From: a virus
Reading direction: 5' to 3' (one strand)
Virus record (IMG/VR): IMGVR_UViG_3300033142_001588
Span: 1-64,000 of that record
Length of the DNA: 64,000 bases
Numbering within the stretch: position 1 is the first letter of the stretch; the number at the start of each line of letters is the position of its first letter. The position numbers and the translations under genes were made by a program. The notes under the pieces are model-generated. The model searched no databases, was not told the DNA's origin, and saw only the letters and a program-made list of their open reading frames with translations. This document shows positions 3,185-18,772 of this stretch, piece by piece.

Positions 3185-4236
3185 TTATTACATATCTTCG
3201 TAGTAGCTCTTACGGCTCCCACGAGATGTGTCCGATGAAATATTTTCTTGAATATAATTTAGGTTGGAAAGGGCCGAGCAATATTAAAGCCGAGAAAGGC
3301 ACTATTGTTCATAAGGTTCTAGAGATTCTTGGTGAAATTAAGTTACAGCAACAGCTTGGTGCGGACACTTTTGAAGACGATGTTGTGGGCACGGTAGACG
3401 TTTCCGATTATGATGTAGATGATCTAATTGGTAAATGTTATGACTACTATGTCCATTACTCTATTCATAAATGGAAGCCGATAGACAGGAAGCACTGTTT
3501 TCAATGGACGTACAAGGCTCTTGAATATCGAGACGGAGAGTTTGATCCTAGAAACTCTGAGATGGTTAAAGCCGAACAGGCTTTTGATTTCGAAGTAAAT
3601 AAACCTTGGGCAATGTATGAGTACGAACTTCCTAATGGAGATACTGTAGAAGGATTCTTGGCCTTAAAAGGTACGATAGATCAAATTAGTAAAATTGATG
3701 ACGAGACATACCAAATCTTAGATTGGAAAACTGGAAGAAGATTAAATTGGGCAACTGGAGAGGAAAAGGATTATGCGGCATTAAACAAAGACCCGCAATT
3801 AATGCTTTACTACTACGCTGCTCAACATCTCTATCCAGACATTGAAAATATTCAGATTGTAATTTATTTTATAAACGATGGTGGTCCTTTTACTATCTGT
3901 TTTTCCAGAAGTGATATTCCAAAAATCGAGAATATGTTAAAGGAAAAATTTGAAGATATTAAAAACAGTGAAATGCCAGCGTTAAATAAGTCTTGGAAAT
4001 GTACTAAATTTTGTCATTATGGAACAACGACTTTTGAAGATACTCATATCAAACCGATTATTGAGCGTAGAGAGGGAGAAGTGACCCCAAAAGGTCAATG
4101 TATGACTAAGTGTGAACAAACCAAATATTGTTTACAGAATAGATCCATGAATTCTGTTATAAAAAATATGTCTGCTAAAGGACATGATATTAATAAATAT
4201 GATGCTCCAGGTGAAGTAAAGGAAGAAACCAAATGA
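3181..4236 (+). CDS. Cas4/RecB-like PD-(D/E)XK nuclease with Fe-S cluster motif
   Basis: Single-strand exonuclease of the Cas4/RecB family, probably used in recombination or DNA end processing. Conserved features are the N-terminal SHEMCPMKYF (Cys17), GTIVHKVLE (motif with His), GTIDQI (Asp) and ILDWKTGR (the D-x-K of PD-(D/E)XK). Three further cysteines near the C-terminus (GQCMTKCEQTKYC) plus Cys17 match the four-Cys Fe-S staple; KCTKFC adds two more. A frame upstream of 3181 is open, but ATG 3181 overlaps the kinase stop as ATGA and begins the family core, so it is chosen. No cas genes or CRISPR array are nearby, so this is a stand-alone phage nuclease, not an adaptation module. Confidence 0.83.
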   Translation: MIITYLRSSSYGSHEMCPMKYFLEYNLGWKGPSNIKAEKGTIVHKVLEILGEIKLQQQLGADTFEDDVVGTVDVSDYDVDDLIGKCYDYYVHYSIHKWKPIDRKHCFQWTYKALEYRDGEFDPRNSEMVKAEQAFDFEVNKPWAMYEYELPNGDTVEGFLALKGTIDQISKIDDETYQILDWKTGRRLNWATGEEKDYAALNKDPQLMLYYYAAQHLYPDIENIQIVIYFINDGGPFTICFSRSDIPKIENMLKEKFEDIKNSEMPALNKSWKCTKFCHYGTTTFEDTHIKPIIERREGEVTPKGQCMTKCEQTKYCLQNRSMNSVIKNMSAKGHDINKYDAPGEVKEETK

Positions 4237-4742
4237 TTATCGAAAAAAAAGATTGCAATTTTTGGGACGAAGTTTATAATGAAAACGGTAATGCTGAAGA
4301 GCCTTATGATGCAATCGTGTGTGATATCACTAAAAGTGTTAGAGGAAATGGAATGCTGGTGATGGAAACAGGTATTGAGCAAGAGTTCAAAGAAAGATTT
4401 GAAGGATTGTGTGAAACCTGGGGACATAGACTTGTAACAGGTTTAAATGCCGATGGAGTTATGTGCAATCCAACTTTTCTTAAAAGAAAAAATCAGCCAG
4501 AGGAACTTGAAGGAAATGTTGATTTAACATTTATTACAGCATTTCCAACTAGAGAAGAATTTAAAAATACTCCAGATAAAGAAACCATTTCTTTGTCTTG
4601 CGAAGTAATGAAAAAACTTGTAGATACGATGGGTTGGGACAGAGTTTTAATGTCTGCTCCATCTAATATTGATTGGGAAGAAATTAAGCCTATTTTTGTA
4701 AAACATTTTGATACTAGATTTACGGTGGTTATTAATGAGTAA
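4233..4742 (+). CDS. Macro-domain-like protein, probably degenerate
   Basis: Looks like a small phage macro domain, the fold that binds ADP-ribose. Family-like segments are DAIVCDITKSVRGNGMLVME then EQEFKERF near the N-terminus, ITAFPTREEF in the middle, and WDRVLMSAPSNIDWEEIKPI near the C-terminus. In typical members the last segment carries a glycine-rich GCGNGGL loop that contacts ADP-ribose; here it is shortened to APSNIDW. Ligand binding may therefore be altered or lost. It overlaps the nuclease upstream (ATGA) and the polymerase downstream (8 nt), so it is co-translated with replication proteins. ADP-ribose-related anti-defence activity is possible but is inference only. Confidence 0.6.
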   Translation: MIIEKKDCNFWDEVYNENGNAEEPYDAIVCDITKSVRGNGMLVMETGIEQEFKERFEGLCETWGHRLVTGLNADGVMCNPTFLKRKNQPEELEGNVDLTFITAFPTREEFKNTPDKETISLSCEVMKKLVDTMGWDRVLMSAPSNIDWEEIKPIFVKHFDTRFTVVINE

Positions 4743-6624
4743 ATATTTTCCGTTACACGTTCATTCTCACTACAGCCTACTCGACGGTCTTAGCAAACCA
4801 GAAGATATCTCTTCTCGTTGTGAAGAAATAGGTTCTGAAGGTTCTGCTCTGACAGACCATGGTTCTATGAGTGGGCACATTCAGTTTCTATCACAGATGA
4901 ATAGGTCTGGTAAAAAGCCTCTTTTAGGATGTGAGTTTTACATCTGTAAAGAAAATGCCGATGTGAAGAATGATCGTAACAGGAAATTGGCTCATTTGTG
5001 CGTAATTGCTCGCAATGATCAAGGATGGAGAGATTTAGTACAAATGGTCTCTATGGCTAACCAAAAGGATCATTTCTATCATAAACCACGCCTAAGTTTA
5101 AAACAAATAGAACCATTTGCACAAAAAGGAAACTTAATGGCTTTTAGTGGTCATTTAGGATCTAATATGGCCAACGTTCTATTTGATGAAGATGGTGAGA
5201 TTTCCAATCACTGGAAAACAGAAGGCACCCGTTTAGCAAGATGGTTTAGTGATACATTTGGTAAAGATAATTTCTTTTTAGAAGTTCAGTTAATGGATTG
5301 TGTGCTAAACCCAACTCAAAAGATTGTTGCTGATTGTATTCGAGAAATTAGTAAAGATACTGGAATTCCATGCGTTGCTACTCCTGATGCTCATTATGCT
5401 CGCAAAGAAGACGCACAAGACCAAAGAATTCTACTATGTTCTAATATGAAAACCACTATCCAACAGGCTAATAGGCCTGAATTTGGACTTGGAACATTTT
5501 TCAAATCTAATCAATACCATATTCCATCATATGAGGAGATGCGTCAATGGCATACGGCAGAGGAACTGGACAACACAAATCTTTTTGCAGCCAGGGTAGA
5601 GGAATACAAAAACATTCTACGTCCACCAATGCTTCCAAATTTCCCCTGTCCAGACGGGATGAATCCAGAGGAGTATTTACGTCATTTGTGTCGAGAAGGT
5701 TGGAGGCAGAAGATTCAAAACGTAGTACCCAAAGAGAAGCATCCAGAATATGTTCAGAGAATCGAGAAAGAGATGGCGGTTCTGCAAGGAGCAGGGCTAT
5801 CTAGTTATTTCTTAATTGTTGCAGATATTATAGATTTCGTGCGAAAAAGCGGATGGTTGCCTGGACCTGGACGAGGTTCCGCTGCTGGTTGTCTAGTATC
5901 TTATCTTTTGGGTATTACTTCAATTGATCCTATGCCTTTTGACTTAATTTTTGAAAGATTTTATAATGCTGGTCGTAACACGGGAGGCAGAGTATCTATG
6001 CCAGATGTAGATATGGATGTTCCCAAATATGCTCGCGAACACGTTATTCAGTATATGAGAGATACGTATGGAGAGCAGAATGTCGGCCAAATGATTACAT
6101 TTACGACCATGAAGGGACGTGGGGCAATTAAGGATGTTTTGCGTGCTTATGGCGGAATTCCTTTTGAAGAAATGAATAAAATCACTAAAAATATTATTGA
6201 AGAACAAAAGATTGCGGATGAATTACAGAAGATGAAAGAGGATCAGGGAGAATCTTCAATCATTAAATGGTGTTTGGAAAATACTCCTGATAAACTTTCT
6301 GAATGGTGTAGAATTGAAGATAGCGGAAAATTAACAGGCCCATTAGCACCTAGATTTGAACAAGCCATTAGATTAGAAGGTACTAAAACAGTTCAATCTA
6401 AACATGCTGCTGGGGTTGTTATTGCTCCAGAACCATTGGCGAATATGTGTCCCATGGTTTTAGATACAGAAAGCGGAAGACAAATAGCTGGTTTAGAAAT
6501 GGAAGACTTGGAAAACGTCGGCGGAATTAAATTTGACGTTTTAGGAATTACTGCTCTAGATAAAGCTATGGGTGTTCAACAAGATTTATGCTTAGGAGAA
6601 ATAAATGAAATTTCAAGAGCTTGA
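4735..6624 (+). CDS. dnaE: DNA polymerase III alpha, N-terminal half (PHP + palm)
   Basis: First half of a split C-family replicative polymerase. It starts with a PHP domain (LHVHSHYSLLDG, residues 7-18; ALTDHGSMSG). The palm carries PGPGRGSAAGCLVSYLLGI and the catalytic Asp cluster MPDVDMDV (Asp424/426). SKHAAGVVI and IKFDVLGITALDK follow; the Asp near residue 601 corresponds to the third catalytic Asp of DnaE. The protein then ends about 20 residues later, where full-length DnaE would run on into the fingers. The rest is encoded at 8084-9787. ATG 4735 overlaps the macro-domain stop and is preferred over 4708. No intein start motifs or splicing domain are seen at the break, so the halves probably assemble non-covalently. 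Confidence 0.9.
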   Translation: MSKYFPLHVHSHYSLLDGLSKPEDISSRCEEIGSEGSALTDHGSMSGHIQFLSQMNRSGKKPLLGCEFYICKENADVKNDRNRKLAHLCVIARNDQGWRDLVQMVSMANQKDHFYHKPRLSLKQIEPFAQKGNLMAFSGHLGSNMANVLFDEDGEISNHWKTEGTRLARWFSDTFGKDNFFLEVQLMDCVLNPTQKIVADCIREISKDTGIPCVATPDAHYARKEDAQDQRILLCSNMKTTIQQANRPEFGLGTFFKSNQYHIPSYEEMRQWHTAEELDNTNLFAARVEEYKNILRPPMLPNFPCPDGMNPEEYLRHLCREGWRQKIQNVVPKEKHPEYVQRIEKEMAVLQGAGLSSYFLIVADIIDFVRKSGWLPGPGRGSAAGCLVSYLLGITSIDPMPFDLIFERFYNAGRNTGGRVSMPDVDMDVPKYAREHVIQYMRDTYGEQNVGQMITFTTMKGRGAIKDVLRAYGGIPFEEMNKITKNIIEEQKIADELQKMKEDQGESSIIKWCLENTPDKLSEWCRIEDSGKLTGPLAPRFEQAIRLEGTKTVQSKHAAGVVIAPEPLANMCPMVLDTESGRQIAGLEMEDLENVGGIKFDVLGITALDKAMGVQQDLCLGEINEISRA

Positions 6625-7273
6625 TATAAACGACGAATTCTATGTCGTTGACTGGAAAAATCTAATATTAAACGATGTTAAAGAGGATACTGTTTTTACA
6701 AAGCTGAAAAAGCGTAATAAAAGCTGTTGTTCACCTGGATATAATTGCTCATGGGTTACGACAAAGCAAAATTTCACTATGATGGATGAATCAACTGAAG
6801 TAATTTTGGTAGAAGAAGATCCAGAGCCTGAACCTGAATCCGAACCTTTAAAATTAAAGAAAGAAATTATAATGAATTACGACACATCTGCTGGCGACCT
6901 TGAATTAGGTGGCATTTTTTATTACGAAAACAACGGATTATCTGAGTACGTAGTAACAAAAAAAAGACAGGGGTTGTTTGTAGTAGCACAAAATACAAAT
7001 GATCCTAAAGATAGATTGTCACTTGATTGGAGTACGAAAGTAATATCAGGAGATTCTGAATCTCACATTGGTGAAATGTTGCCAAACGAACCATCAGTGA
7101 ATATACTTACTGAAGAAACACTTGAACCTGAAGAAAAAGATGAAGAATATTTTTTAGGCGTTTTTAAGGATGTGCAAGAAGAAATTAAAGAAATGGTTGC
7201 TGGAAAAATCCAAGCTGAAGAAGCTGAAGAAGCTGAAGAAGCTGAAACCGAGGAAGAAAAAGAAGAAGAATAA
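6605..7273 (+). CDS. Acidic protein with two small-barrel-like repeats
   Basis: Unknown function. It starts inside the end of the polymerase gene (20-nt overlap) with a good ribosome binding site, AGGAGA, just upstream. Residues about 1-70 and 95-155 look like two copies of a small beta-rich phage domain: FQELDINDEFYV / GDLELGGIFYY, then a strand with TKLKKR / VTKKRQ, then STEVILV / STKVIS. The C-terminus is a low-complexity acidic tail with a GCTGAAGAA microsatellite (about 7212-7245) encoding EEAEEAEEA. Just before it, IKEMVAGKIQ is encoded by 30 nt identical to a stretch in the tape measure gene. Its position between the polymerase halves suggests a replication-linked role, but that is inference. 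Confidence 0.62.
   Translation: MKFQELDINDEFYVVDWKNLILNDVKEDTVFTKLKKRNKSCCSPGYNCSWVTTKQNFTMMDESTEVILVEEDPEPEPESEPLKLKKEIIMNYDTSAGDLELGGIFYYENNGLSEYVVTKKRQGLFVVAQNTNDPKDRLSLDWSTKVISGDSESHIGEMLPNEPSVNILTEETLEPEEKDEEYFLGVFKDVQEEIKEMVAGKIQAEEAEEAEEAETEEEKEEE
7184..7213 (+). repeat. 30-nt exact repeat, copy 1 (inverted relative to 29490-29519)
   Basis: Thirty bases, beginning ATTAAAGAAATGG and ending AAAAATCCAA, are identical to the reverse strand of 29490-29519 in the tape measure gene. Both copies are read in the same frame and encode IKEMVAGKIQ. Codon-exact identity between two otherwise unrelated genes 22 kb apart is far beyond chance. Confidence 0.9.
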
Positions 7274-7292
7274 ATTTAATAAGGAATATATT

Positions 7293-8009
7293 GTGAAGAA
7301 CTTTGTTTGTGTATACGATTTTGAAACTGATGGAAGTAATCCTAAAAAATGCGAGCCAGTACAAATTGCGGCTTGCATGATCAATCCAATTACTTTAGAG
7401 ATTGTTGACAATTCAGAATTTTGTTCTTGGATGAGGCCTCAAGGTATAGATGAAAAAGATTATTTTGAAAAACATTGTGATACCATTCGTTGGCACGCCA
7501 AGAACTACACAGAGAATTATGACGACTTAACTCAGGAAGATCGCGATAAAGCTGATCAAGGCATTTACCAAACATGGTTGGATGCTCCTGAACAAAAGCA
7601 AGTCTGGGATGATTTCACAAATTACCTTTTAATTTATAATAAGAACCAGTCTCGTAGAAGCCGATTTACCGCACCTATTCGAGCAGGCATTAATATTAGA
7701 CGCTTCGATAACGTGATTGCAGATCGGCTTTGCGAGCGGTTCGGATATATTACTAAAGAAGAAGAGCAAAAAATCTTTAATCCAAGAGATTGTATTGATA
7801 TTATGGAAATGGCTTTCTACTGGTTTGAAAATCTGCCAGAGCCTAAATCATACAGTATGGACGAATTGAGAAAATTCTTTGGTATGTCTGGTCATGGCGC
7901 TCATGATGCTTTAAACGATGTTCGAGATGAAGCACTGGTAATCCAAAAATTCTTGAGATTGCATAGACGAACATCTTCTAAAGTAAAATTCAAAAATGCT
8001 ATGGCATAA
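7293..8009 (+). CDS. DEDDh 3'-5' exonuclease (proofreading / exonuclease I-like)
   Basis: Probable proofreading or single-strand 3'-5' exonuclease. Exo I motif is VYDFETDGSNP (Asp9, Glu11), Exo II is NIRRFDNVIADRL, and Exo III is GHGAHDALNDVRDEA with the DEDDh His and Asp. Spacing and the HGAHDALNDV block resemble E. coli exonuclease I (SbcB) and DnaQ. GTG 7293 is chosen: AAGGAA lies at 7281-7286, the catalytic fold begins at once, and the longer frame from 7170 adds only a lysine-rich shadow of the acidic tail of the upstream gene. It sits between the two polymerase halves, neither of which carries an exonuclease domain, so it is the likely epsilon-like partner. Confidence 0.85.
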   Translation: MKNFVCVYDFETDGSNPKKCEPVQIAACMINPITLEIVDNSEFCSWMRPQGIDEKDYFEKHCDTIRWHAKNYTENYDDLTQEDRDKADQGIYQTWLDAPEQKQVWDDFTNYLLIYNKNQSRRSRFTAPIRAGINIRRFDNVIADRLCERFGYITKEEEQKIFNPRDCIDIMEMAFYWFENLPEPKSYSMDELRKFFGMSGHGAHDALNDVRDEALVIQKFLRLHRRTSSKVKFKNAMA

Positions 8010-8029
8010 TTTGAAAAATAGAGTATAAT
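8001..8029 (+). promoter_or_regulatory. Sigma70-like promoter before polymerase C-half
   Basis: A perfect -10 TATAAT (8024-8029) lies 17 nt after ATGGCA (8001-8006), which matches TTGACA at four of six positions. The surrounding TAGAGTATAAT is close to TAGAGTATATTAT in the ssb promoter, suggesting a shared recognition sequence. The leader to the ATG at 8084 is about 50 nt. Confidence 0.5.
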
Positions 8030-8083
8030 AGAAGTATACCTTTTATTTTATTTGGTTATTTTTTGTTGTAGGACTTTTGTAAT

Positions 8084-9787
8084 ATGATCGAGATTAAGAA
8101 TGGTTATGCATATTTTGAGTGTGGCTGCAAATTTGAAGTTGAGGAAGAAGGGCCGCCAGTCAAGCTAAAGTGGGATTTTGATCTTCCTCTTAATTGCCAA
8201 AGAACTTGGGATTTAATTGGTGAAGGTAATACCAAAGGCGTATTCCAACTAGAAACACGATTCGGCCAACAATACGCTAAAAAGCTCAAACCAGAAAATA
8301 TTGAGCAGCTTGCAGCTCTATCTGCAATCCTAAGACCTGGATGTATCCAATCTATTCGTGACGGTAAGAATATTGCCGAGCATTACATGGATAGAAAAAA
8401 CGGTCTAGAAGAAGTTACAATCTCACATCCTGCTCTAGAACCTATTCTTTCGCCAACCTTTGGTGAAATGATTTACCAGGAGCAGGCAATGAGAATTGCC
8501 CAGGATATTGCTGGCTTTGATCTCCAACAAGCTGATGTACTTCGTAAAGCTATTGGTAAGAAAAAGGCCGACATTATGGCCAAGCTTGAAAATGAGTTTC
8601 TTGAAGGGTGTGAAAAACAAGGAATTCTAAATAAAGAAGAAGCCCAAGAGCTGTGGGATCAGATCGAAAAATCACAACGATATTCTTTTAATAAAAGCCA
8701 CTCAGTATCTTATGCAATGAATGGTTATTTATCTGCTTATGCAAAAGCACATTTTCCAGCATCATTCTTTACTTCATATCTATGGTATGCCAAAGATAAG
8801 CAGAAGAAGTTTGATGAAATCAAATTACTAGTTGCTAATGCTAGAGTCATGGGTATTAATATCTACCCCCCAGATTTTAGATACGCCAATGAACATTTTA
8901 AACGTATCTCGAATTCTGTACCAGGACAACCAACATATAATCCTTATGATGACAAAATTTATTTCGGTCTTTCTAATATTAAAGGAATCGGGAAAAGCGC
9001 TGTCGTAAAAGTTGCTAATGCAATTTATCTTGCAGAAACAGCAATTAATCGCCCTCGCAAAGATTGGTCATGGACCGATTTTCTTGTATATTTTTCGCAA
9101 GATGTAGGTAGCACTGTAGTAGCTGGTATGATTGAAGCAGGAGCTTTAGACTATTTAAAAACAGCAAGAACGCAAATGTTATTTGATTATGAACAATATT
9201 CCAAATTAACAAATAAAGAACATGCGTGGATTAAGCAGAATATAAAAAATGCCAGTTCGCTAAAACAAATATTGGAAGAATCATTAAAACGACATGATAA
9301 CCCTGATAAAAAAGTAAAGGGTCCGTGTGCTAATAAAAACAGAATACAGAAAATGAAAGACATTTTAAGCTTAGTTGTAAATCCGCCTTATGCTTTAAGG
9401 GATGCTCCCGATTGGATTGCTAGGGTAGAAGAAGCCAGACTCGGAATTTCCATTACTGCTTCAATTCTAGATGGTTGCAAAAATGCGGATCAAGCAAATT
9501 GCACTATTTTAGAATTTCAGAAACATAAGGAAAAAACTAGCGGAATTTTTATTGCTTGTCAAATCGACGAAATAAAAACCCATATTACTAGAAACAATGA
9601 ACAGGAAATGGCTTTTGTTACTGTTAGTGACGGCGAATGCTCTATGGACTGCGTAATATTTCCAAATGACTGGGATGAAATTCGCAGTAAAGGAATTTGT
9701 GTTGCGGAAAATACTGTTCTTGTTAGTGGAGATAGATCAAGAAATAGCGATAGTTTGATTGTTAAAAAAATGTGGCAATTGACTTGA
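8084..9787 (+). CDS. dnaE: DNA polymerase III alpha, C-terminal half (fingers, HhH, OB fold)
   Basis: Second half of the split C-family polymerase. After about 30 residues not typical of DnaE (Cys-containing YFECGCKFEV), the DnaE line resumes with LPLNCQRTWDLIGEGNTKGV and FQLETRFGQ. LSAILRPG, YQEQAMRIAQDIAGF, LRKAIGKKK and YSFNKSHSVSYAMNGY are all DnaE finger motifs. Next come FGLSNIKGIGKSAV (helix-hairpin-helix) and a C-terminal OB-like region ending in VSGDRSRNSDSLIVKK. Fragment 1 supplies PHP, palm and all three catalytic Asp; this protein supplies fingers and DNA and clamp contacts. It has its own promoter-like site and ribosome binding site (TAGGAC), so it can be made separately from the first half. 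Confidence 0.9.
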   Translation: MIEIKNGYAYFECGCKFEVEEEGPPVKLKWDFDLPLNCQRTWDLIGEGNTKGVFQLETRFGQQYAKKLKPENIEQLAALSAILRPGCIQSIRDGKNIAEHYMDRKNGLEEVTISHPALEPILSPTFGEMIYQEQAMRIAQDIAGFDLQQADVLRKAIGKKKADIMAKLENEFLEGCEKQGILNKEEAQELWDQIEKSQRYSFNKSHSVSYAMNGYLSAYAKAHFPASFFTSYLWYAKDKQKKFDEIKLLVANARVMGINIYPPDFRYANEHFKRISNSVPGQPTYNPYDDKIYFGLSNIKGIGKSAVVKVANAIYLAETAINRPRKDWSWTDFLVYFSQDVGSTVVAGMIEAGALDYLKTARTQMLFDYEQYSKLTNKEHAWIKQNIKNASSLKQILEESLKRHDNPDKKVKGPCANKNRIQKMKDILSLVVNPPYALRDAPDWIARVEEARLGISITASILDGCKNADQANCTILEFQKHKEKTSGIFIACQIDEIKTHITRNNEQEMAFVTVSDGECSMDCVIFPNDWDEIRSKGICVAENTVLVSGDRSRNSDSLIVKKMWQLT

Positions 9788-9813
9788 CATATTCAGTTTT
9801 TAGAGTATATTAT
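9784..9813 (+). promoter_or_regulatory. Sigma70-like promoter for ssb
   Basis: A perfect -35 TTGACA (9784-9789) is followed by TATATT (spacer 16) or TATTAT (spacer 18). It lies across the stop of the polymerase half and before the ssb leader hairpin. The element TTTAGAGTATATTATG resembles the site at 8017-8031. Confidence 0.7.
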
Positions 9814-9847
9814 GATAAACTACTTCTATCAAAAAAAGTAAGTTTCA

Positions 9848-9905
9848 GACGGTTCTTATCTAAGATGGAAGAGAAGACAAAACCGTCATTTTTTATTTTT
9901 TAATT
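9848..9905 (+). terminator. Hairpin plus T-run in the ssb leader (possible attenuator)
   Basis: GACGGTT (9848-9854) pairs with AACCGTC (9881-9887) around a 26-nt loop and is followed by long T-rich runs up to about 9918. It lies between the ssb promoter and the ssb ribosome binding site. It could end readthrough from the polymerase gene, attenuate ssb, or define a short leader RNA. The stem is only 7 bp, so strength is uncertain. Confidence 0.5.
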
Positions 9906-9932
9906 TTTGTTTTTTATTTTGGAGGAAAAGGT

Positions 9933-10364
9933 ATGAACATTGTAGTTCTAAAAGGCAATCTCACCCGCGATCCTGAAGTTCGGCAAATCAATGCTGGTGG
10001 ACGAGAAACGCAAGTCGCTAATTTTACGATTGCGGTAAATCGTCATTTTAAGCGTGCTGATGGAACTCGCGATAAGGAAACTACTTATGTAGATTGTGAA
10101 GCATGGGATACGGGCGCTAATACTCTAGGGCAATATTTCCATCGCGGAGATCCTATTTTAGTGCAAGGAGCATTGAAGCTCGACACTTGGGAGACTGATG
10201 GACAGAAGCGTTCTAAGTTGAAAGTTAGAGTAAATAACTTTGAGCGACTTTATCGTGCTCCCGAATCTGAAGATTCCGAATCTAATTTTCGTGATCAAAA
10301 ATCAACACAGGCAGCGCCAGTTACGGCGGATTCAGGGGCTGCTGGAGAAGACATCCCATTTTAA
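9933..10364 (+). CDS. ssb: Single-stranded DNA-binding protein
   Basis: OB-fold SSB that coats single-stranded DNA at the phage fork. It starts MNIVVLKGNLTRDPEVR and has the family blocks VANFTIAVNRHFKR, TTYVDCEAWD and GDPILVQGAL, then a disordered acidic tail ending GEDIPF. That tip matches the bacterial SSB tail that recruits partner proteins, so it may engage host SSB-interacting proteins. The 143-residue size is usual. GGAGG at 9921-9925 is a strong ribosome binding site. The stop overlaps the ATG of the next gene by one base. It has its own promoter and leader hairpin, consistent with high expression. Confidence 0.95.
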   Translation: MNIVVLKGNLTRDPEVRQINAGGRETQVANFTIAVNRHFKRADGTRDKETTYVDCEAWDTGANTLGQYFHRGDPILVQGALKLDTWETDGQKRSKLKVRVNNFERLYRAPESEDSESNFRDQKSTQAAPVTADSGAAGEDIPF

Positions 10365-10879
10365 TGGGTGGTGATCTAACTAATGCTGCAACAGAACAAC
10401 TAGACTCCATCATGGAAAATAATATGGGGCTAGTTGTTTTAGTTGCAAAATCTTTTAATCCACAGAATGAAGAACAGTTGGATGAGTTTGTTCAACTGGG
10501 GCGTATTGGTATGTGGAAAGCTATTAAAAAATACGATCCGTCTCGTGCTAAACTTTCTACTTTAATTTGGCTTTATGTGCGGTGGGAAATTTTAAGGCAT
10601 CTTAAAAAAAATAATAAAAAAGAAATACAAATGGACGAAAATTTGTATTTAGAGGATAATCTAATTATAGATTCTTATTTTTGGGAATATTTACCTGAAC
10701 AGTTAACATACAACGAAAAATCTGTTATTAACTTAAGATTGCAGGGGCATACGTTTTTTGAAATAGGAAAAGAACTTGGGTATTCTAGAGGTTGGGCTAA
10801 CAACACATTTAAAACGGCTATAAGCAAGATTAAAAATGGAAATGAAAAAAAGAAAAAAGAGAATACTCATAGTAAATGA
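10364..10879 (+). CDS. RNA polymerase sigma factor-like protein
   Basis: Small sigma70-family protein, probably directing host RNA polymerase to phage promoters. Region 2 is seen as DEFVQLGRIGMWKAIKKYDP and then STLIWLYVRWEILRHLKK, which includes the -10-recognising helix. Region 4 is a helix-turn-helix: LTYNEKSVINLRLQGHTFFE followed by IGKELGYSRGWANNTFKTAI. Regions 1 and 3 are absent, as in phage and ECF-type sigmas; 171 residues is in that range. It overlaps the ssb stop and the next gene. It may serve late genes by analogy with T4 gp55, but its promoter is not shown by the sequence. Confidence 0.75.
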   Translation: MGGDLTNAATEQLDSIMENNMGLVVLVAKSFNPQNEEQLDEFVQLGRIGMWKAIKKYDPSRAKLSTLIWLYVRWEILRHLKKNNKKEIQMDENLYLEDNLIIDSYFWEYLPEQLTYNEKSVINLRLQGHTFFEIGKELGYSRGWANNTFKTAISKIKNGNEKKKKENTHSK

Positions 10880-12593
10880 GGCCCATTTTCTATATACTGG
10901 ATTTGCTAAATATGGAAAAGAAATTCTTAAAAGACTAGCTGCTACTGGAAAATATGAGTTAGCAGAACTAGGTTGTTATGGAGAAATGGCTGACGCAAGA
11001 CTTCCAGTAAATGAATTAAAATGGAAATATTATGGAAATATGCCCGATACCTCCATGATAAAAAAGTCGCAATTAGCAGCGCCTAATAACAGACTAACTA
11101 CAGCAGAACAGAAAAAACTGGAGGAGCAAAAAAAGCAAAAAGATATATATGATACTACAGCAGATGCCCCTTTTGGCAGATGGAGATTTGAACGTGTTTG
11201 TTTAGACTTTAAGCCAGATTTTGTTATTGATGTAAGAGATCCCTGGATGATAAAAGCCGTGGTAAATTCTCAACTGCGTGATTTTTTTCATCTTGTATTA
11301 ATGCCAACTGTTGATTCTGCACCACAAAAACCAGAGTTTATATATGATTTTGAATCAGCTGATGGAATCTTAGTCTATACTGAATATGGAAAAAGAGTTC
11401 TTGAAGAACAGTCTGAAAAAATTAAAGTTTTTTCTTCAGCTCCTCCAGGCGTTGATATTAATCAGTTTAAGCCTTTACAGAAGGACAAATGTAGGGAACA
11501 CTTTGGTCTTGATAAAGAAATGATCATTTTTGGTACTATTATGCGTAACCAAATGAGAAAACTCTATCCAGATCTTTTCGAAGCATTTAAAAAATACCTA
11601 GACCTGTGTTACGAAAACGGTAACGCAGAAATAGCAAAAAGAAGTTATTTACATATTCATTGTGGTTATCCCGACTCAGGTTGGGACATACCACAATTTA
11701 TTAGAGATATGGGTATTAGTAATAATGTGTTGATGACACAGGTTTGTTCAAAATGTAAGAATCCGACAATGGGGCTTTTTAGTAATTTCCCCATATGTAA
11801 GTGCGGATCTATGTGTAGTTTTCCTTCTACAAGCATGGCAACAAGTGATGCTAATCTAGCACGTATTATAAATACGTATGATGCGTATATTCAATATTCT
11901 GTTTGCGAAGGATTTGGAATGCCTCAAGTAGAAGCTGCTGCCTGTGGAATTCCAGTTATGACTCCTAATTATTCTGCTATGGAAGATATTTTAAATTATT
12001 CCAAAGGAATTGAAATACCTATTAAAACAATGTTTTGGGACAACGGGACTCATGCAAAAAGATTGATTCCTGATAATGAAGTTTTCGGAAAAAATCTTTA
12101 TGACTTTGCATTACTTCCACAGTCTGCAAAAAGGCATCTGGGTATATCTTCTAGAATAGCAACTGAAAAACATTGGAATTGGGATAATACAGCTAAAGTA
12201 TGGGAAGATTATATTGATAATGCGGAATTAACTGGCCTTCAAGGAAAATGGGAAGAGACTCCTCCAAAAACTTTTTCAAAAATTCCAGAAACTGTTCCTG
12301 ATAATTTATCCGATTCTGAGTTTTGCAAATGGGTTATTGTAAATATTGCGCAAAAGCCAGAGCTTTTAAATACATATTTTGAAAAAATAATGACTTTACG
12401 AATTATGTATCGACATCGCATCACCGACAGATCTGCCTTTTCAAGGCAAATGTTTATTGATCTATGCACAGCCATACATAGAAACTCTATTGATTGTGAA
12501 TCAGGAAGAGTAAATCCAAATTCATTGTTACAGCAAGATTACATAGATTATGCTAATAAGTTATATGATCATGTACAGAAAGTTAATAATTAA
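10836..12593 (+). CDS. GT-B glycosyltransferase (GT4-like) with zinc-ribbon insert
   Basis: Retaining GT4-like glycosyltransferase, first gene of the glycan cluster. The N-terminal Rossmann fold begins ILIVNEAHFLYTGFAKYGKE. The donor-binding half has FKVF-type substitutes and a clear E-x7-E motif, EGFGMPQVEAAACGIPV. Before that motif, QVCSKCKNPTMG and ICKCGSMC form a Cys-x2-Cys ... Cys-x-Cys knuckle that probably binds zinc; such an insert is not part of the GT4 core. A C-terminal helical region (bases about 12240-12590) is extra. It overlaps the sigma gene by 44 nt; ATG 10842 is an alternative start. The acceptor could be virion protein, modified DNA or host glycan. Confidence 0.78.
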   Translation: MEMKKRKKRILIVNEAHFLYTGFAKYGKEILKRLAATGKYELAELGCYGEMADARLPVNELKWKYYGNMPDTSMIKKSQLAAPNNRLTTAEQKKLEEQKKQKDIYDTTADAPFGRWRFERVCLDFKPDFVIDVRDPWMIKAVVNSQLRDFFHLVLMPTVDSAPQKPEFIYDFESADGILVYTEYGKRVLEEQSEKIKVFSSAPPGVDINQFKPLQKDKCREHFGLDKEMIIFGTIMRNQMRKLYPDLFEAFKKYLDLCYENGNAEIAKRSYLHIHCGYPDSGWDIPQFIRDMGISNNVLMTQVCSKCKNPTMGLFSNFPICKCGSMCSFPSTSMATSDANLARIINTYDAYIQYSVCEGFGMPQVEAAACGIPVMTPNYSAMEDILNYSKGIEIPIKTMFWDNGTHAKRLIPDNEVFGKNLYDFALLPQSAKRHLGISSRIATEKHWNWDNTAKVWEDYIDNAELTGLQGKWEETPPKTFSKIPETVPDNLSDSEFCKWVIVNIAQKPELLNTYFEKIMTLRIMYRHRITDRSAFSRQMFIDLCTAIHRNSIDCESGRVNPNSLLQQDYIDYANKLYDHVQKVNN

Positions 12594-13753
12594 TGAAAAA
12601 TATACTTTTTTGCGGTCCTTATAGACAAAAAGACGGTTGGGGCAATGCTTCTAAGGAATATCTTAGGGCTTTAAAGCTAACTGGTTATAATATAGCTGCT
12701 AGACCATTATATACAAACAGGGATATGTTTTATAATGACGACATCTCTTCTTTTGAAGATTCTAAAGAATTTTCAGGTTTGGAAAATAAAAGCTATGATA
12801 GTTATGATATAATCATTCAACACTGTCTTCCTCATATGACTAAGCATTATGGAGGTGTTAAAAATATATCACTACTTCATTTGGAAAATACAATTAAGCA
12901 CACCGAATTATATTATCCCCTTAGCTTAATGGATGAGATATGGGTATCGACAGAATTTGAAAAAAGAATGCTAGAAGAAAGTGATATTAAACAATCTATA
13001 TCTGTAATTAAGCTGCCTTGTAATATTGAAAAATATGGCCACAAAACAAATATAGAATTTGGAGAACAGTTCAAGGTTTTAGAAAGCACTTATAATTTTT
13101 ATTTTATTGGAGAATCTATTTGGAGAAAAAATCTAGACGATTTAATCAAAGCATTCCATGGAGAATTTAATCCAAGTGAGAATGTTTCTTTAGTTATAAA
13201 AACACATCATTTTGGTAAATCAGAACAACAAACCTTAAGTATAATTAAAGAAAAAATAGCTAATATAAAAAAAGAAATAAAGATGTATTACTACCAGAAT
13301 ATGCCTTATAAAAAAGAATTAATAATACCTGAACACATGCCTCAAAAAAAACTTTACGAACTACATTCAGTTTTGGATTGTCTTGTTGTTCCATCTAGGG
13401 GAGAGGGTTTTTGTATTCCAGCTTTTGACGCTATTATGCACGGATCAAAAGTTATAGCCAATGAGAATGCTGGATCATCACAATTTTTAAATGAACATAA
13501 TTCTAAACCAATTAAAAGCTATAAAACCCCAATGATTTCTCCAGAAGAATATGTACCTCTCCATAATTTTTATAATAATAGAAATTACTGGCACCAAATA
13601 AGCGTCTGTGATTTAAAAGAAAAAATGAGAGAAGCATATGAAGAAAATAAAGATAAGGACGAATCAGAAGAAATAAAAAAACATTCTCGTGAAAATATTT
13701 TACCTCTTTATTCATACGAAAACGTAGCCAAAGAAATGTTGGAAGTATTATGA
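12593..13753 (+). CDS. GT-B glycosyltransferase (GT4-like)
   Basis: Second GT-B glycosyltransferase. It starts ILFCGPYRQKDGWGNASKEY, with the small-residue loop of GT4 enzymes, then IIIQHCLPHM and DEIWVSTEFEKRMLEES. The donor half shows FYFIGESIWRKNLDDLIKAF and VVPSRGEGFCIPAFDAIMHG; here the second Glu of E-x7-E is Asp, which may lower activity or change the donor. Its start shares a base with the upstream stop and its end overlaps the next gene by 4 nt, so it is part of one coupled cluster. Confidence 0.78.
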   Translation: MKNILFCGPYRQKDGWGNASKEYLRALKLTGYNIAARPLYTNRDMFYNDDISSFEDSKEFSGLENKSYDSYDIIIQHCLPHMTKHYGGVKNISLLHLENTIKHTELYYPLSLMDEIWVSTEFEKRMLEESDIKQSISVIKLPCNIEKYGHKTNIEFGEQFKVLESTYNFYFIGESIWRKNLDDLIKAFHGEFNPSENVSLVIKTHHFGKSEQQTLSIIKEKIANIKKEIKMYYYQNMPYKKELIIPEHMPQKKLYELHSVLDCLVVPSRGEGFCIPAFDAIMHGSKVIANENAGSSQFLNEHNSKPIKSYKTPMISPEEYVPLHNFYNNRNYWHQISVCDLKEKMREAYEENKDKDESEEIKKHSRENILPLYSYENVAKEMLEVL

Positions 13754-14805
13754 AAAATTATGTAGATCAGGTGATGCATTCCGCTTTAAGAAAAACTGGC
13801 CAAGAGGTTAATACAATTTATTATCCCTTCGATGGCCTGTTTGAAAATATATTTGGAACAATTCCTGTAATTAACCATTTTGTTAGTTTTTTCAAAAAGT
13901 ACCCTTTTAATATTGCAATTCCTAACAATTATAACGAATTGCCTAATGAAGCATTGGGTCGTACAGAAAATTATGCCACTAGTTTTCCAGATAGAGTTGA
14001 TGTTGATTGCATTATTTGTAATGATATATTAACGGAACAAAATAATACTAACTCCAGTATGATTTCAACTGGTTGGCATGTTCCATTAATTGTAAATGTT
14101 CATGCAGATGTGGATCTTATTAACACGCACATGATTGAAGACAAAATAAATAGCACTTGCATTAAAGATGAAAATGTTTATTCTGTTTTTGGTCATGATG
14201 TAATAAAATCACGTTGGGGATTAGAAAACCATCCCCGTGCTGTAACCATACCTTATGGTATACCGTTTTTAAACAACCAAAATAATTTTGACGAAAGAGA
14301 AAACATTGCGCTGATTTGCGATGTTCTTAATCCTGAAACTGTAGATTTTATAAATAAAGTAAATCAAAAAATCCCAAATCTAAATATTTATACAACGACT
14401 CCACTGTCCATCGAAGTAAATCCAAATAACACTCCTACATTCTGCCCAACGTTTAGAGATTTATTAAAGGTTATGAATAATAATAAAATATGCATTGCGA
14501 TTAATAGCGAAGCATCTCACGCTCCTATTATTCCTATGTTGGCAGCTGCTAATGGATGTGCTATAATAACAAATGACTGCGTTTGGTCTAGCCTTATTTT
14601 TAATCATAATCATGATGCATTATTGTTTAAAAGCCTAGACCAATTACAAGAACAGGTTTTTGGCCTAATGTTTAATTCAGAATTAATTAATTTTTTATCT
14701 GATAATGCAAAACAAAATATGAGGTCGAATTATAATATGGTAGATTTCCAACAAAAATGGATTACCTTTATAAGTAACGTTATTAACAAGGTGTATATTC
14801 GATGA
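13750..14805 (+). CDS. GT-B-like glycosyltransferase, divergent
   Basis: Divergent member of the same GT-B group. It lacks the first strand of the fold and begins with a helix (VDQVMHSALRKTGQEV). Related segments are CIICNDILTEQNN, PLIVNVHADVDL, VYSVFGHDVIKSRWG and AVTIPYGIPFL. In the donor half the E-x7-E site is replaced by INSEASHAPIIPMLAAANGC, with only the first Glu left. It is probably an inactive or partner subunit, or a very diverged enzyme. Overlaps of 4 nt at both ends place it in the cluster operon. Confidence 0.6.
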   Translation: MKNYVDQVMHSALRKTGQEVNTIYYPFDGLFENIFGTIPVINHFVSFFKKYPFNIAIPNNYNELPNEALGRTENYATSFPDRVDVDCIICNDILTEQNNTNSSMISTGWHVPLIVNVHADVDLINTHMIEDKINSTCIKDENVYSVFGHDVIKSRWGLENHPRAVTIPYGIPFLNNQNNFDERENIALICDVLNPETVDFINKVNQKIPNLNIYTTTPLSIEVNPNNTPTFCPTFRDLLKVMNNNKICIAINSEASHAPIIPMLAAANGCAIITNDCVWSSLIFNHNHDALLFKSLDQLQEQVFGLMFNSELINFLSDNAKQNMRSNYNMVDFQQKWITFISNVINKVYIR

Positions 14806-15230
14806 AAATTTGCGTACAACATCCAAATTCACAAATTAAACCCCAGTCAAATGAAGTTCCAGTTAAATTAAATGAACTTTCTGATATACAAAACTCTAGC
14901 TGTGTTTCTGTTTATTTGTCAGACTGCTTGGATTTTATACCCTTGAATGAGAGAACAAGTCTAATAGATATCGCAATCTTAAAATTAAGACAGGGCGGAG
15001 ATCTAATAATAGATGGAGCAGATATATTTGCAATTAGCCATGCGTTACAATCTGGCATTCGAAGCATAGAAACATTGAACAATGTTTTATTTAATGGTAA
15101 ACTTTCAGCCGACAGTGTGATTAGTGTTGTTAATTATATTGAAAAAAATGATAATATGACAGTAATTAGTTATAAAGTAGATAGTTTACATTACACAATA
15201 AAGGCGAGAAGAAAAAATGCAAACCGATAA
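14802..15230 (+). CDS. Methyltransferase-like protein lacking SAM motif I
   Basis: Short (142 residues) protein that looks like the C-terminal half of a class I SAM-dependent methyltransferase. It shows VYLSDCLDFIPLNERTSLID then LKLRQGGDLIIDGADIFA, resembling the E/D-hLPp and vLkpGG segments after the SAM site. The N-terminal glycine-rich SAM-binding loop is missing, so catalysis is doubtful. Such proteins accompany phage glycosyltransferases. It overlaps both neighbours (4 and 14 nt). Confidence 0.5.
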   Translation: MKICVQHPNSQIKPQSNEVPVKLNELSDIQNSSCVSVYLSDCLDFIPLNERTSLIDIAILKLRQGGDLIIDGADIFAISHALQSGIRSIETLNNVLFNGKLSADSVISVVNYIEKNDNMTVISYKVDSLHYTIKARRKNANR

Positions 15231-16098
15231 TAATACATCGTGTAAAGATTGCATATTTGCAGAATACGAGGGAATTACCCAAGTTAGCTGTAAAAAGAAT
15301 ATGTTAGACAAATATACACAAGTTATAGAAGCATATGACGAAGATAAAGAATTTTTTGTAATTTTTAATAGAAAGTGCCCAAACTATAGACCACAAAAAT
15401 GGCTAACTTATTTAAAGTCTAAATTAGAAGATAACGAAGATCATAAAGATGATGATATAAATTCTGTCGTAGAAAGAATGATGGATTTTGAAAATTCTCT
15501 AATTTTTCATGTTATGGTTTTTGTTGAAGATGGTTCCTTAGAAGGTATTACTAAAACTTTACAATCTTTAAAAAATCAAATAAGACCACCTTCTTATGTT
15601 ACTTTCTTTTGCGATCAAAGCAAAATGCATTTTAATATATACTCATTAATAAAACAATTAGAAGATGACACAATACCATTTAAATGGAAGACGATGGACT
15701 TGTTATTTTCTAGAAAAGATCATTTAATGGTCAATCTAGCTACGAAGAATTTTGATGCACAGTATTATTCAGTTTGTAAAGCTGGTTATGAATACGAACA
15801 GGATTTTTTCAACAATATTAATAAAGCAGTAATAGATCATGCTATTCAATTTGCTATGATAGAACCAGAAGAAAAAGAAGAAAATTTGCCATATCAAAAC
15901 GGATCAGTTGTTCCATATTCCGTACACGAGTTTTGGCTTTATGAAAACGAATCAAATCTAAAGAACGAGCCAGACAATATCACCCCAATACCTGAAAAAT
16001 TAAGAGAATTCCAATGTCAGAACAAGGATCAAAAAGTATTATACAGCATAAAAGAGATACAGGATATTTTGAGCACTTGCCAGAAAGACGTGATGTAG
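15217..16098 (+). CDS. GT-A (GT2-like) glycosyltransferase with N-terminal Cys domain
   Basis: GT2-like protein. The N-terminus carries a small four-Cys domain: CKDCIFAEYEGITQVSCKKN ... AYDEDKEFFVIFNRKCPNYR, known from other phage glycosyltransferases and probably metal-binding. The GT-A region begins FHVMVFVEDGSLEGITKTLQ, followed by SYVTFFCDQSK. Where a metal-binding DxD would be expected the sequence reads AQYYSVCKAGYEY, so the canonical site is altered. Late segments (NGSVVPYSVHEFW) fit phage GT2 proteins. It overlaps the next frame by 85 nt. Confidence 0.6.
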   Translation: MQTDNNTSCKDCIFAEYEGITQVSCKKNMLDKYTQVIEAYDEDKEFFVIFNRKCPNYRPQKWLTYLKSKLEDNEDHKDDDINSVVERMMDFENSLIFHVMVFVEDGSLEGITKTLQSLKNQIRPPSYVTFFCDQSKMHFNIYSLIKQLEDDTIPFKWKTMDLLFSRKDHLMVNLATKNFDAQYYSVCKAGYEYEQDFFNNINKAVIDHAIQFAMIEPEEKEENLPYQNGSVVPYSVHEFWLYENESNLKNEPDNITPIPEKLREFQCQNKDQKVLYSIKEIQDILSTCQKDVM

Positions 16099-16706
16099 AA
16101 ATTTTAGCCAGAAAAAATTTGTCGAAAACCATATCGCTTGAAGATGGTCCTAGTTTACTAACATTAGTACTGGGAGAAAAAAGAGAAATTCCTACAAATT
16201 ATCCTAATATGGATATTGTTTTTCAATCAGAATATGAGAATCTCGACAACCCCTCAGATTTTTTAAACAATTTTTTGTATGAAACACTTTATGAGGCTGT
16301 TTTATTCATCGGAAAAGGCCAAACTGCAACAGATGAAAATTCTATAAAAAGAATGGTTAAGGGCTTATTTGAAATAAAAAACAGTGTTTTCACATTTAGT
16401 GACACATTAGCTGTAAACGATAACCAAGAAACCCTGTATGTTCAACGTAATTCTATATTAGATAATTTAAGTAACCAAGTTGTAAACACTCCTTTTATAT
16501 GTAAAATGGAATGTATGCCAAAATTTAATCGTGAGATTCAAGACCTTGTTTTATATTACGGATTTAACGAATTGAAAAAAACTCATAAAGAATGCGGAAC
16601 ACACATCGCCGAATCCTTATTTAAAAACAATTGGAAAAATGATCATATTACTGCGTCTTCCATGAAGGATCATGAAATTATAAAAGCGGAAAGCAATGGC
16701 TCGTAA
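16014..16706 (+). CDS. Glycan-cluster protein, possibly GT-A-like
   Basis: Not firmly recognised. Segments LNNFLYETLYEAVLFIGKGQ and IKRMVKGLFEIKNSVFTFSD, with LYVQRNSILDNL, weakly resemble the middle of phage GT2-like proteins such as its upstream neighbour. No DxD is evident. It begins 85 nt inside the upstream gene in another frame; internal starts are possible, but the frame is open throughout and its end overlaps the nucleotidyltransferase by 11 nt. It most likely acts with the other cluster proteins. Confidence 0.5.
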   Translation: MSEQGSKSIIQHKRDTGYFEHLPERRDVEILARKNLSKTISLEDGPSLLTLVLGEKREIPTNYPNMDIVFQSEYENLDNPSDFLNNFLYETLYEAVLFIGKGQTATDENSIKRMVKGLFEIKNSVFTFSDTLAVNDNQETLYVQRNSILDNLSNQVVNTPFICKMECMPKFNREIQDLVLYYGFNELKKTHKECGTHIAESLFKNNWKNDHITASSMKDHEIIKAESNGS

Positions 16707-17412
16707 TATAGCACCTGCAATTAGGAATGATAATAGACCAATTTCTGTTATAATACCTGCTGCTGGACTTGGCAGTAGAATGAAATCCTATGGCCCAAAG
16801 TCTTTGGTAAAAATCAAAGATAATTTAAGTATTATTGAAAATCAATTAAAGTTTATTTATAAGTACTTAAACAAACCTCAAATAATTTTAGTAACTGGAT
16901 ATGAATCAAAATTAGTAGAATCTTGTGTTCAAAAATATAAAAATATTACAGTTGTTAGAAATGAAGAATGGGAAGATACAAATGTTGTTGCCAGTATAGC
17001 CAAAGGCCTAGAATTTGTAAAACATGAAAATGTTCTTATTATTTATGGCGACTTGGTTTTTAATGCGTGGACTTTAAAAGTTCCATTTGGGAATGACTCC
17101 ATGGTATTGGTTGACAAAAAAGGTTTTATGAAAGAAGAAGAAGTAGGATGTACAGTACAGTCAAATATGTTAGAGAATATGATGTATGGATTAAATTATA
17201 AATGGGCTCAGATATCATATTTTACCAAACATGAATTAATATTATTGAAAAGGTTTTTAAAAAATCCTTTGTACAATACGTTTTTTGGTTTTGAAATCAT
17301 AAATATGATAATAAGCTCTGGCGGTAAATTTATAGCACATTCAAATCCAAGAATGAAAATTATAGACATAGATTCTTCTAGGGATTTAATACAAGTCGAG
17401 GAAATTATATGA
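16696..17412 (+). CDS. Sugar-1-phosphate/phosphocholine-type nucleotidyltransferase
   Basis: Activates a sugar or choline-like phosphate with an NTP, supplying a donor to the neighbouring transferases. The signature is ISVIIPAAGLGSRMKSYGPK then SLVKI (bases about 16740-16815), with the glycine-rich loop and the Lys. IILVTGYESK and the DTNVVASIAKGLEF segment match LicC/GlmU-type enzymes. The metal-binding Asp is in IIYGDLVFN. The 238-residue length is that of a single-domain enzyme without an acyltransferase tail. Overlaps of 11 and 4 nt link it to its neighbours. The exact substrate is not readable. Confidence 0.83.
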   Translation: MARNIAPAIRNDNRPISVIIPAAGLGSRMKSYGPKSLVKIKDNLSIIENQLKFIYKYLNKPQIILVTGYESKLVESCVQKYKNITVVRNEEWEDTNVVASIAKGLEFVKHENVLIIYGDLVFNAWTLKVPFGNDSMVLVDKKGFMKEEEVGCTVQSNMLENMMYGLNYKWAQISYFTKHELILLKRFLKNPLYNTFFGFEIINMIISSGGKFIAHSNPRMKIIDIDSSRDLIQVEEII

Positions 17413-18329
17413 GATTTTTTGCAACACCTTTGCCCCTAAGATACCAGGGAATTATAAAATCTGCTACCAATATTTTTGATCAGTCTTTCTTATGGAATCC
17501 AGAAAAACAAAATTTCTTTGACTCTTTGGATTCTTTTTCGCCAGACATTTTATTTTGCGATGTGGACAATGTTAATAACGCAATTATATCTGCGTGTAAC
17601 AATTTTACAAATTTGAAAAAAATTGTTTTATTTTCTAATCGTCCAATAAACTCCCTTCGCTCTGATTTGATTTGTGCTGAACCTTCCATTTCCGCAACAA
17701 TGAAAAGAAACTTAGAAAGAAATGGCTCAACGTTATTTTATTTAAGTGACTATGCGGATATTTCAAACTTGTCCAATGAGAAAAAAGAAGAACAGTTTAA
17801 ATCAGATTTTTCATATTATTTTAGTGCAGAAGAAAAAGCCCAAGTAGAGAAATCTATGGCGGCATCGGCTGAGAAATTCTCATCATTATTAGCATATTTA
17901 AAATCTTTATCAGAAATTGGCAAGTTAAAAATTACAGGTGCGTCCAAGTTACCTGTTCCAGAACATTTAGGATACTTGCCTCCAGATAGAGTTATATCGT
18001 TTTTAAAATCTTCTAAAATATCTCTTGATATATGTGGTGGAAATTTATTTAATCAAGCCGCTAATGGAATTTTTACAGTATCTACTACGGATAATTACTT
18101 ATTTCCCACGATTAAAATAAATAAAGACGCAAAAGATAAAATTAAAGAACTGTTAGAAAATCCAGAAACAAGAGATAAAATAACAAAAGAAGCCCAAGAA
18201 AAAGTTTTTCGAAATGATACGTCTTATCAACGACTATCAACAATCTTGGATAAAATAGGATTAAATGAGTTTGCACAAAAATCTAAAAATAAAATAAAGG
18301 AAATTAAATGCGAGCTGGAATTATTATAA
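17409..18329 (+). CDS. Divergent GT-B-like protein
   Basis: Likely diverged glycosyltransferase of the GT-B fold. The N-terminal half has Rossmann-like strands (DILFCDVDNVNNAIISACNN, LKKIVLFSNRP). A helical segment at about residues 130-175 (EEKAQVEKSMAASAEKFSSL) is inserted. The last third resembles the donor domain: HLGYLPPDRVISFLKSSKIS then LDICGGNLFNQAANGIFTVS, where the usual Glu is replaced by Asn/Gln. A lysine-rich helix ends the protein. It may be a pseudo-enzyme partner in the cluster. Confidence 0.52.
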   Translation: MRFFATPLPLRYQGIIKSATNIFDQSFLWNPEKQNFFDSLDSFSPDILFCDVDNVNNAIISACNNFTNLKKIVLFSNRPINSLRSDLICAEPSISATMKRNLERNGSTLFYLSDYADISNLSNEKKEEQFKSDFSYYFSAEEKAQVEKSMAASAEKFSSLLAYLKSLSEIGKLKITGASKLPVPEHLGYLPPDRVISFLKSSKISLDICGGNLFNQAANGIFTVSTTDNYLFPTIKINKDAKDKIKELLENPETRDKITKEAQEKVFRNDTSYQRLSTILDKIGLNEFAQKSKNKIKEIKCELELL

Positions 18330-18772
18330 ATAACTTTAAGGCTAATCAAATTGGCAATACGATATTGCAAGAAATTTCTAAAATAAAAAAACAAGAATAT
18401 CATTCTGACATAATTTGTTTTTGTGAAAACAGAAGTTTCGCAAGTATTAGTGGAAATAAAGATATAACATTTTTACATCAAGGTCATTTATGGGGTTATA
18501 ACGGAACTTGCATTGCAAACGATTTAGACACTTGTTTAACAATGATAAATTGTAGTTCTATAAAAAATAAGTATTTTTACTTGTGGGATTTGGAATGGAT
18601 GGGTCAAAATTATGATTTAGACTATTTGTGTAGCATATATTTAAACCCACTTGTAAAACTAATAGCTAGAAGTGAAGAACATGCTCAAATTATAGAGTCC
18701 TGTTGGAAAAAACCAGTAGCGACCATAGAGGATTTTAATTATGAAGAAATTACCAAAATCATTAATGAATGA
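18308..18772 (+). CDS. Small glycan-cluster protein
   Basis: A 154-residue protein with two Rossmann-like strands (AGIIINNFKANQIGNTILQE; SDIICFCEN) and a WDLEWMGQNYDLD segment, which looks like the N-terminal half of a GT-B protein without a donor domain. It is the last gene of the glycan cluster, overlapping its neighbours by 22 and 32 nt. Function is unknown; pairing with the preceding donor-domain-like protein is a possibility. Confidence 0.5.
   Translation: MRAGIIINNFKANQIGNTILQEISKIKKQEYHSDIICFCENRSFASISGNKDITFLHQGHLWGYNGTCIANDLDTCLTMINCSSIKNKYFYLWDLEWMGQNYDLDYLCSIYLNPLVKLIARSEEHAQIIESCWKKPVATIEDFNYEEITKIINE

Follow-up and report, generated by a model that had tools for sequence, protein, structure and literature searches.

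A DNA polymerase III alpha subunit encoded in two genes around an exonuclease gene in a group of uncultivated tailed phages

Cyanobacterial DnaE is encoded by two far-apart genes, cut before CFNKSHS, and its parts are rejoined by a split intein. 'Fractured genes' that carry split inteins together with a free-standing endonuclease were reportedly described by Dassa and colleagues in 2009. Split genes of T4-like phages have been linked to homing-endonuclease insertion; the split NrdA of phage Aeh1 is active, and gp43A and gp43B of phage 25 co-purify with polymerase activity (PMC2988022). The literature on split Pol III alpha yielded only the case of the group 2.2 jumbo phages, in which two proteins were proposed to reconstitute the enzyme (Iyer et al. 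2021, PMC7824862). These proteins hold minimal core domains, their genes lie far apart and a family B polymerase is present alongside (PMC7824862). Among annotated phage genomes, the mycobacteriophage Fowlmouth (gp85/gp86) and the corynephage P1201 (gp59/gp58) have a DnaE cut at the same linker as the one described here, with adjacent or overlapping genes, while in the actinophages LilyPad, Rope and OverHedge the PHP domain is separated instead.

Here we describe a Pol III alpha encoded by two genes in a stretch of 64,000 nucleotides (the window) from the IMG/VR virus record IMGVR_UViG_3300033142_001588, which has 85,119 bp in full. Four open reading frames follow each other on the plus strand, namely the alpha N-half (alpha-N), a small acidic protein (S), a DEDDh exonuclease and the alpha C-half (alpha-C), and their positions are given in Table 1. 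The first-pass annotation had proposed an alpha subunit split around its exonuclease, and this is borne out by the reading frames, by Pfam and PHROG matches and by 81 of 82 relatives. The cassette lies among genes for a DnaB-like helicase, a Toprim primase, a PD-(D/E)XK nuclease, SSB and a sigma-70-like factor, all recognised by Pfam. Beside this replication cluster, glycosyltransferase and NTP-transferase genes stand in a row (window 10836-18329), and counterparts of this run also adjoin the replication cluster in the relatives L168 and L075.

Table 1. Positions of the cassette genes, of features within or next to them, and of further cuts in relatives.
Feature	Sequence	Position	Strand	Basis
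Pol III alpha N-half (alpha-N), PHP and palm/thumb, 629 aa	window	4735-6624	+	Pfam, alignment, AF2/Foldseek
Small acidic protein S, 222 aa, overlaps the 3' end of the N-half gene	window	6605-7273	+	ORF
DEDDh exonuclease, 238 aa, most likely start GTG 7293	window	7293-8009	+	RNase_T, PHROG 192, motifs
Pol III alpha C-half (alpha-C), fingers, HhH and OB, 567 aa	window	8084-9787	+	Pfam, alignment, AF2/Foldseek
C-half head, residues 1-32, C13-x-C15	window	8084-8179	+	alignment, pN/pS, AF2
Promoter-like site before the C-half, ATGGCA-17-TATAAT, 10/12, probably chance	window	8001-8029	+	shuffles
SSB gene adjoining the cassette	window	9933-10364	+	Pfam SSB 1.6e-26
Split-intein locus in the N-half	L026	4032-7108
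Split-intein locus in the N-half	L046	4026-7119
IS^MPDID cut	L057 and kin (positions for L057)	4123-7116
IS^MPDID cut	L075	5107-7373

The two chains share the domain order, the catalytic Asp residues and the PHP metal residues of the DnaE-type alpha subunits of Thermus (2HPI), E. coli (2HNH) and M. tuberculosis (7PU7), but they differ from these in being two, in an extra C-x-C head, in a His (His140) at a PHP position occupied by Cys in the cellular DnaE compared, and in the lack of an obvious internal clamp-binding motif. The C-half has 567 aa and does not extend beyond the OB domain, so it appears to lack the C-terminal tau-binding region as well. Like the cyanobacterial DnaE the polymerase has two genes, but the cut lies elsewhere and the halves carry neither IntN nor IntC; the cyanobacterial split-intein site, which had been called intact, is indeed present in the C-half as YSFNKSHS. 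The fractured genes find a parallel in the relatives L026 and L046, at a different position in this gene, whereas the palm/finger split is without an intein. In the T4-like phages an essential gene is split likewise and the chains reassemble into an active enzyme, but these are other enzymes (RNR and a family B polymerase) and no proofreader gene lies between the parts. In contrast to the jumbo-phage proteins, the window encodes a full set of domains from PHP to OB in clustered genes, and no PolB match was obtained in 15 records. Fowlmouth and P1201 have neither an exonuclease nor a small protein between the halves, and Fowlmouth is without the C-x-C head; because Fowlmouth is sister to Rope, in which palm and finger are fused, its cut is independent.

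In Pfam the N-half matches PHP (E 7e-32) and DNA_pol3_alpha (1e-70, complete 1-260), and the C-half matches DNA_pol3_finger (1e-45) and HHH_6. Together with Foldseek and phmmer comparisons to Pol III alpha, these matches place PHP, palm, finger and HhH in DnaE order across both chains, although the single polypeptide typical of DnaE-type alpha is replaced by two reading frames in the window and likewise in 81 of 82 relatives. In alignments of the N-half with the Taq, E. coli and M. tuberculosis proteins and of the C-half with those of Taq and E. coli, the N-half extends past residue 625 of Thermus (Taq) alpha and the C-half takes over at 637. As the halves abut on Taq alpha, no conserved core residue has been lost. 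The cut lies in the palm/finger linker, after the helix behind the third catalytic Asp, and each half therefore represents a complete domain set. The window N-half ends past the helix 'LDKAMGVQQDLCLGEINEISRA', with about 10-20 residues between LDKxM and the stop, and the C-half core restarts at 'VKLKWDFDLPLNCQRTWDLI'; in fused relatives the corresponding junction reads, for instance, 'KFDFLGLKTLTVIKHTLDLIRAASG-TSIDIDKIPLDDRATY' (L171). The break had been placed just after the third catalytic Asp, and the second half had been taken to resume at the finger motif GVFQLE, whereas it starts about 50 residues earlier, with a head. In the alignment the catalytic residues D424, D426 and D428 (PDVDMD) and D601 are conserved and all belong to the N-half, with Glu, Ser or Gln in four alignment rows being artefacts at another fracture site; the conserved PHP metal-site residues are all in the N-half as well. 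Modelled as single chains by AF2, the N-half reaches a mean pLDDT of 87.2 and finds Pol III alpha 2hpi as its best Foldseek match (E 6e-46), and the C-half reaches 86.6 and matches Pol III alpha 4iqj/7pu7 (E 1e-22). The C-half is under strong purifying selection (pN/pS 0.11).

A scan of viral_contigs with the C-half returned 232 relatives, of which 80 loci were kept, and further scans added more. Both halves are present in 82 distinct loci; 81 of these share the split and have the exonuclease gene in the gap, and in the remaining one, L075, the halves are joined. Two other metagenome assemblies (L002 and L003) are 100% identical to the window over all four genes; because of these and the 81 split relatives, an assembly error, which had been named as a possible source of the break, is excluded. 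The nearest distinct relatives, L004/L005, have a C-half 64% identical to that of the window, and the C-halves of the others are 41-50% identical. Across the deep divergence outside the nearest relative, identity to the window is 45-50% for C-halves and 51-57% for N-halves. The isolate phage collection holds no close relative of either half and no record that reaches 60% identity, and among the best 60 matches listed identity is about 27-30% for the C-half and 30-34% for the N-half. An assignment to hosts from a Flavobacteriales MAG (L167) and a Lokiarchaeota MAG (L168) was not trusted, as these contigs are probably mis-binned. The record of the window and those of 14 relatives (94-200 kb) each encode one finger domain, and searches in which the controls behaved as expected gave no match to a family A or B polymerase and no recognisable beta clamp in these 15 records. 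The split alpha is thus provisionally the sole recognisable polymerase in these 15 records; the lack of another is provisional, as the records may be incomplete, yet it is consistent over all 15.

In L075, which is represented by one contig, palm and finger form one ORF of 816 aa and are joined at exactly the linker that is cut in the window, which indicates that both halves belong to one enzyme and act together. Two DNA-pattern scans of viral_contigs found no fused contig beyond it. L075 is without the C-x-C head, and its exonuclease gene lies further downstream, after a glycosyltransferase-like gene. The first-pass annotation had treated one intact gene with the same junction in a related phage as evidence against separate chains; such a gene was found in L075 only, and the non-covalent reading survives because 81 of the 82 loci are split. 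L075 could represent the original joined gene, with a single split afterwards, and AU tests do not reject a tree with L075 outside a single clade of the split sequences (p 0.08, 0.12 and 0.32). However, several best trees place the window/L004 and L006 outside L075 and the core, and L075 retains C38 of the C-half, a position at which eight fused cellular DnaE have Asp. The position of L075 inside the split clade in several of the best trees suggests a re-fusion, and we regard an original joined gene in L075 as conceivable but doubtful.

The split C-halves all start with the extra head, which comprises about 20-40 residues (about 30 in the window) and contains the C-x-C motif. All 62 split sequences checked have C13, C15 and C38, whereas in the alignment C13/C15 fall into a gap in L075 and in the eight cellular DnaE, the head being missing from the fused forms. 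The head shows a pN/pS of 0.24 compared to 0.11 for the remainder, and changes are mostly synonymous per site; it is therefore a translated protein under selection and not part of an intron. AF2 predicts a small beta structure with strands at 2-5, 8-10 and 16-21. A search for an N-half Cys that co-varies with the C-x-C head gave no obvious candidate, and the invariant N-half Cys are also present in fused L075. The head may have arisen with the split or have been fixed by it, and its probable role is to cap or stabilise the N-terminus newly created in alpha-C, perhaps via a metal site with C38.

The exonuclease matches RNase_T in Pfam (E 1.5e-7) and PHROG 192 'DNA polymerase exonuclease subunit' (2e-14), and the DEDDh motifs DFETDG and HDALND can be read from its sequence. 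Its counterparts in relatives are 40-66% identical and stand in the same place; in most relatives the exonuclease gene runs 1-8 nt into the C-half gene. The C-half had been credited with its own promoter. This did not hold, since 21 promoter-like sites compared to 19 +/- 5 expected from shuffles amount to chance, and the genes overlap in most relatives. In L019, L039 and L040, insertions of 1-3.6 kb part the exonuclease gene from the C-half gene; in L019 (5590-6573) and L040 (5803-6876) a DUF1559 prepilin-like gene and ThyX lie at this place. DUF1559 is typical of Planctomycetota and gives a hint at such a host.

The small acidic protein reported between the halves is present, but it is actually a doubled form: S of the window consists of two copies of a domain of about 60 aa, with an SCC motif in the first, and an acidic tail, and thus is a duplicated and elongated version of the ~60-aa protein of most relatives. 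S of the window has no Pfam or PHROG match. The S gene and the 3'-terminal part of the tape-measure gene have a 30-bp perfect repeat (40/44) in common (window 7170-7213, plus strand, and 29490-29533, minus strand), including the shared peptide IKEMVAGKIQ, and S in the window has apparently taken up part of that gene. Of 60 loci scanned, 57 have a small ORF at the S position, which contains an [SN]CC motif in 49 of them, and in L168 an unrelated 71-aa ORF replaces S, which weakens a universal role for S.

We consider it very probable that the alpha subunit is a non-covalent enzyme of two chains. This reading is best supported because the split is conserved, both halves are under purifying selection and are predicted to fold separately, neither an intein nor an Rfam intron was detected at the junction, and a fused form exists in L075. 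Two or three chains had been suggested initially; the two-chain version is the one best supported, and the exonuclease as a third chain is suggested by its gene position only. Alpha-N, with PHP, palm, thumb and the catalytic Asp residues, and alpha-C, with fingers, HhH and OB, would form the phage replicative polymerase by assembling non-covalently at the palm/finger interface, which is internal in ordinary DnaE. The exonuclease is most likely the proofreading subunit, a partnership that we infer from gene position, and would dock on the PHP domain of alpha-N in the manner of DnaQ and E. coli alpha. The tight packing and frequent overlap of the four genes favour co-translation and balanced amounts. 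Counting against this reading on the side of processivity, no phage clamp was found, and a regular expression detected the clamp-binding motif in just 2 of 60 C-halves.

It is possible, though unlikely, that the exonuclease or S or both are obligatory bridging subunits, and that the enzyme assembles only as a complex of three or four chains. The constant place of the exonuclease and, in most loci, of a small ORF between the halves would fit such a role, as would the displaced exonuclease gene of fused L075. On the other hand, L168 without S keeps both the split and the head, insertions part the exonuclease from the C-half in L019, L039 and L040, and gene position may reflect only the origin of the split or co-regulation. 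A joint reading, in which the exonuclease (perhaps with S) is integral to a stable multi-chain replicase, the C-x-C head is a new metal-bearing docking module evolved for holding the two polymerase halves together, and the L057 type has three chains with heads gained, appears to us a little less likely still. Returning to the two-chain enzyme, it is very improbable that the two genes are remnants in decay or encode an accessory repair enzyme while a host polymerase replicates the phage. The lack of a recognisable phage clamp would agree with a replisome from the host, but the purifying selection on the C-half, the intact catalytic residues, the place of the cassette within a helicase/primase/SSB replication cluster and the lack of another recognisable polymerase in the 15 records all speak against it.

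The gene is also cut at other sites. In L026 and L046 a split intein interrupts the N-half at GPGRG^SAAG with an endonuclease-like ORF between the parts, the IntN of L026 ending in '...TKDHKFLT' and the IntC of both loci in '...GIGVHN^S'. In L057-type loci and in L075, a LAGLIDADG-type gene interrupts the N-half at IS^MPDID. The part downstream of this cut carries a conserved head of about 85 residues (NSYIMWI), which has no PHROG match, so that alpha of the L057 type may consist of three chains. L018 carries a cis intein within the finger domain of the C-half (7977-10367). The conclusion that intein motifs are missing thus holds for the window, but in relatives both split and cis inteins occur at other sites of the gene. 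That a split intein or RNA (trans-)splicing joins the halves into one chain has hardly any likelihood, in spite of the true split inteins of L026 and L046, as the C-half head is coding, under selection and without the HN-[CST] end of an IntC, the window proteins have no Hint/intein match, most relatives have overlapping frames for the exonuclease and the C-half, and no Rfam intron passes the gathering threshold in the window or nine relatives, a search that divergent introns may escape.

Split inteins and homing-endonuclease genes elsewhere in the gene suggest how the fracture arises. An HNH/homing-endonuclease-like gene of ~930 bp lies precisely in the palm/finger split of L006 (~5957-6891), and L018, the >91% identical sibling of L006, has no HNH gene there. 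From these sequences it is plausible that a homing-endonuclease-type element invaded the linker; the split would then probably have arisen by this invasion, with the element later lost or replaced by S and the exonuclease. In the neighbouring PD-(D/E)XK nuclease gene, an intein-like insert can be read from the sequence in L057 (2138-4126) and L075 (3086-5110). The window itself has weak NUMOD3 and restriction-endonuclease-like matches at 18741-19571, a possible homing endonuclease of this phage.

Split phage polymerases were already known, while the conserved four-gene arrangement with a cysteine-bearing cap is new within the scope of our search, as it was not found in the open-licence papers or annotated phage genomes searched. 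The phages that carry it form a large, widespread and uncultivated group of tailed phages known from metagenomes only. Cuts recur at one linker, at least two of them independent, and together with fused L075 they allow the formation, persistence and re-fusion of split enzymes to be compared. With split inteins, cis inteins and homing-endonuclease genes all occurring in one gene, the origin of fractured genes becomes testable, and the split alpha provides a natural two-part polymerase for studies of subunit assembly. Separately made chains can between them hold the active centre of a bacterial-type replicative polymerase, and this state has been kept over deep divergence.
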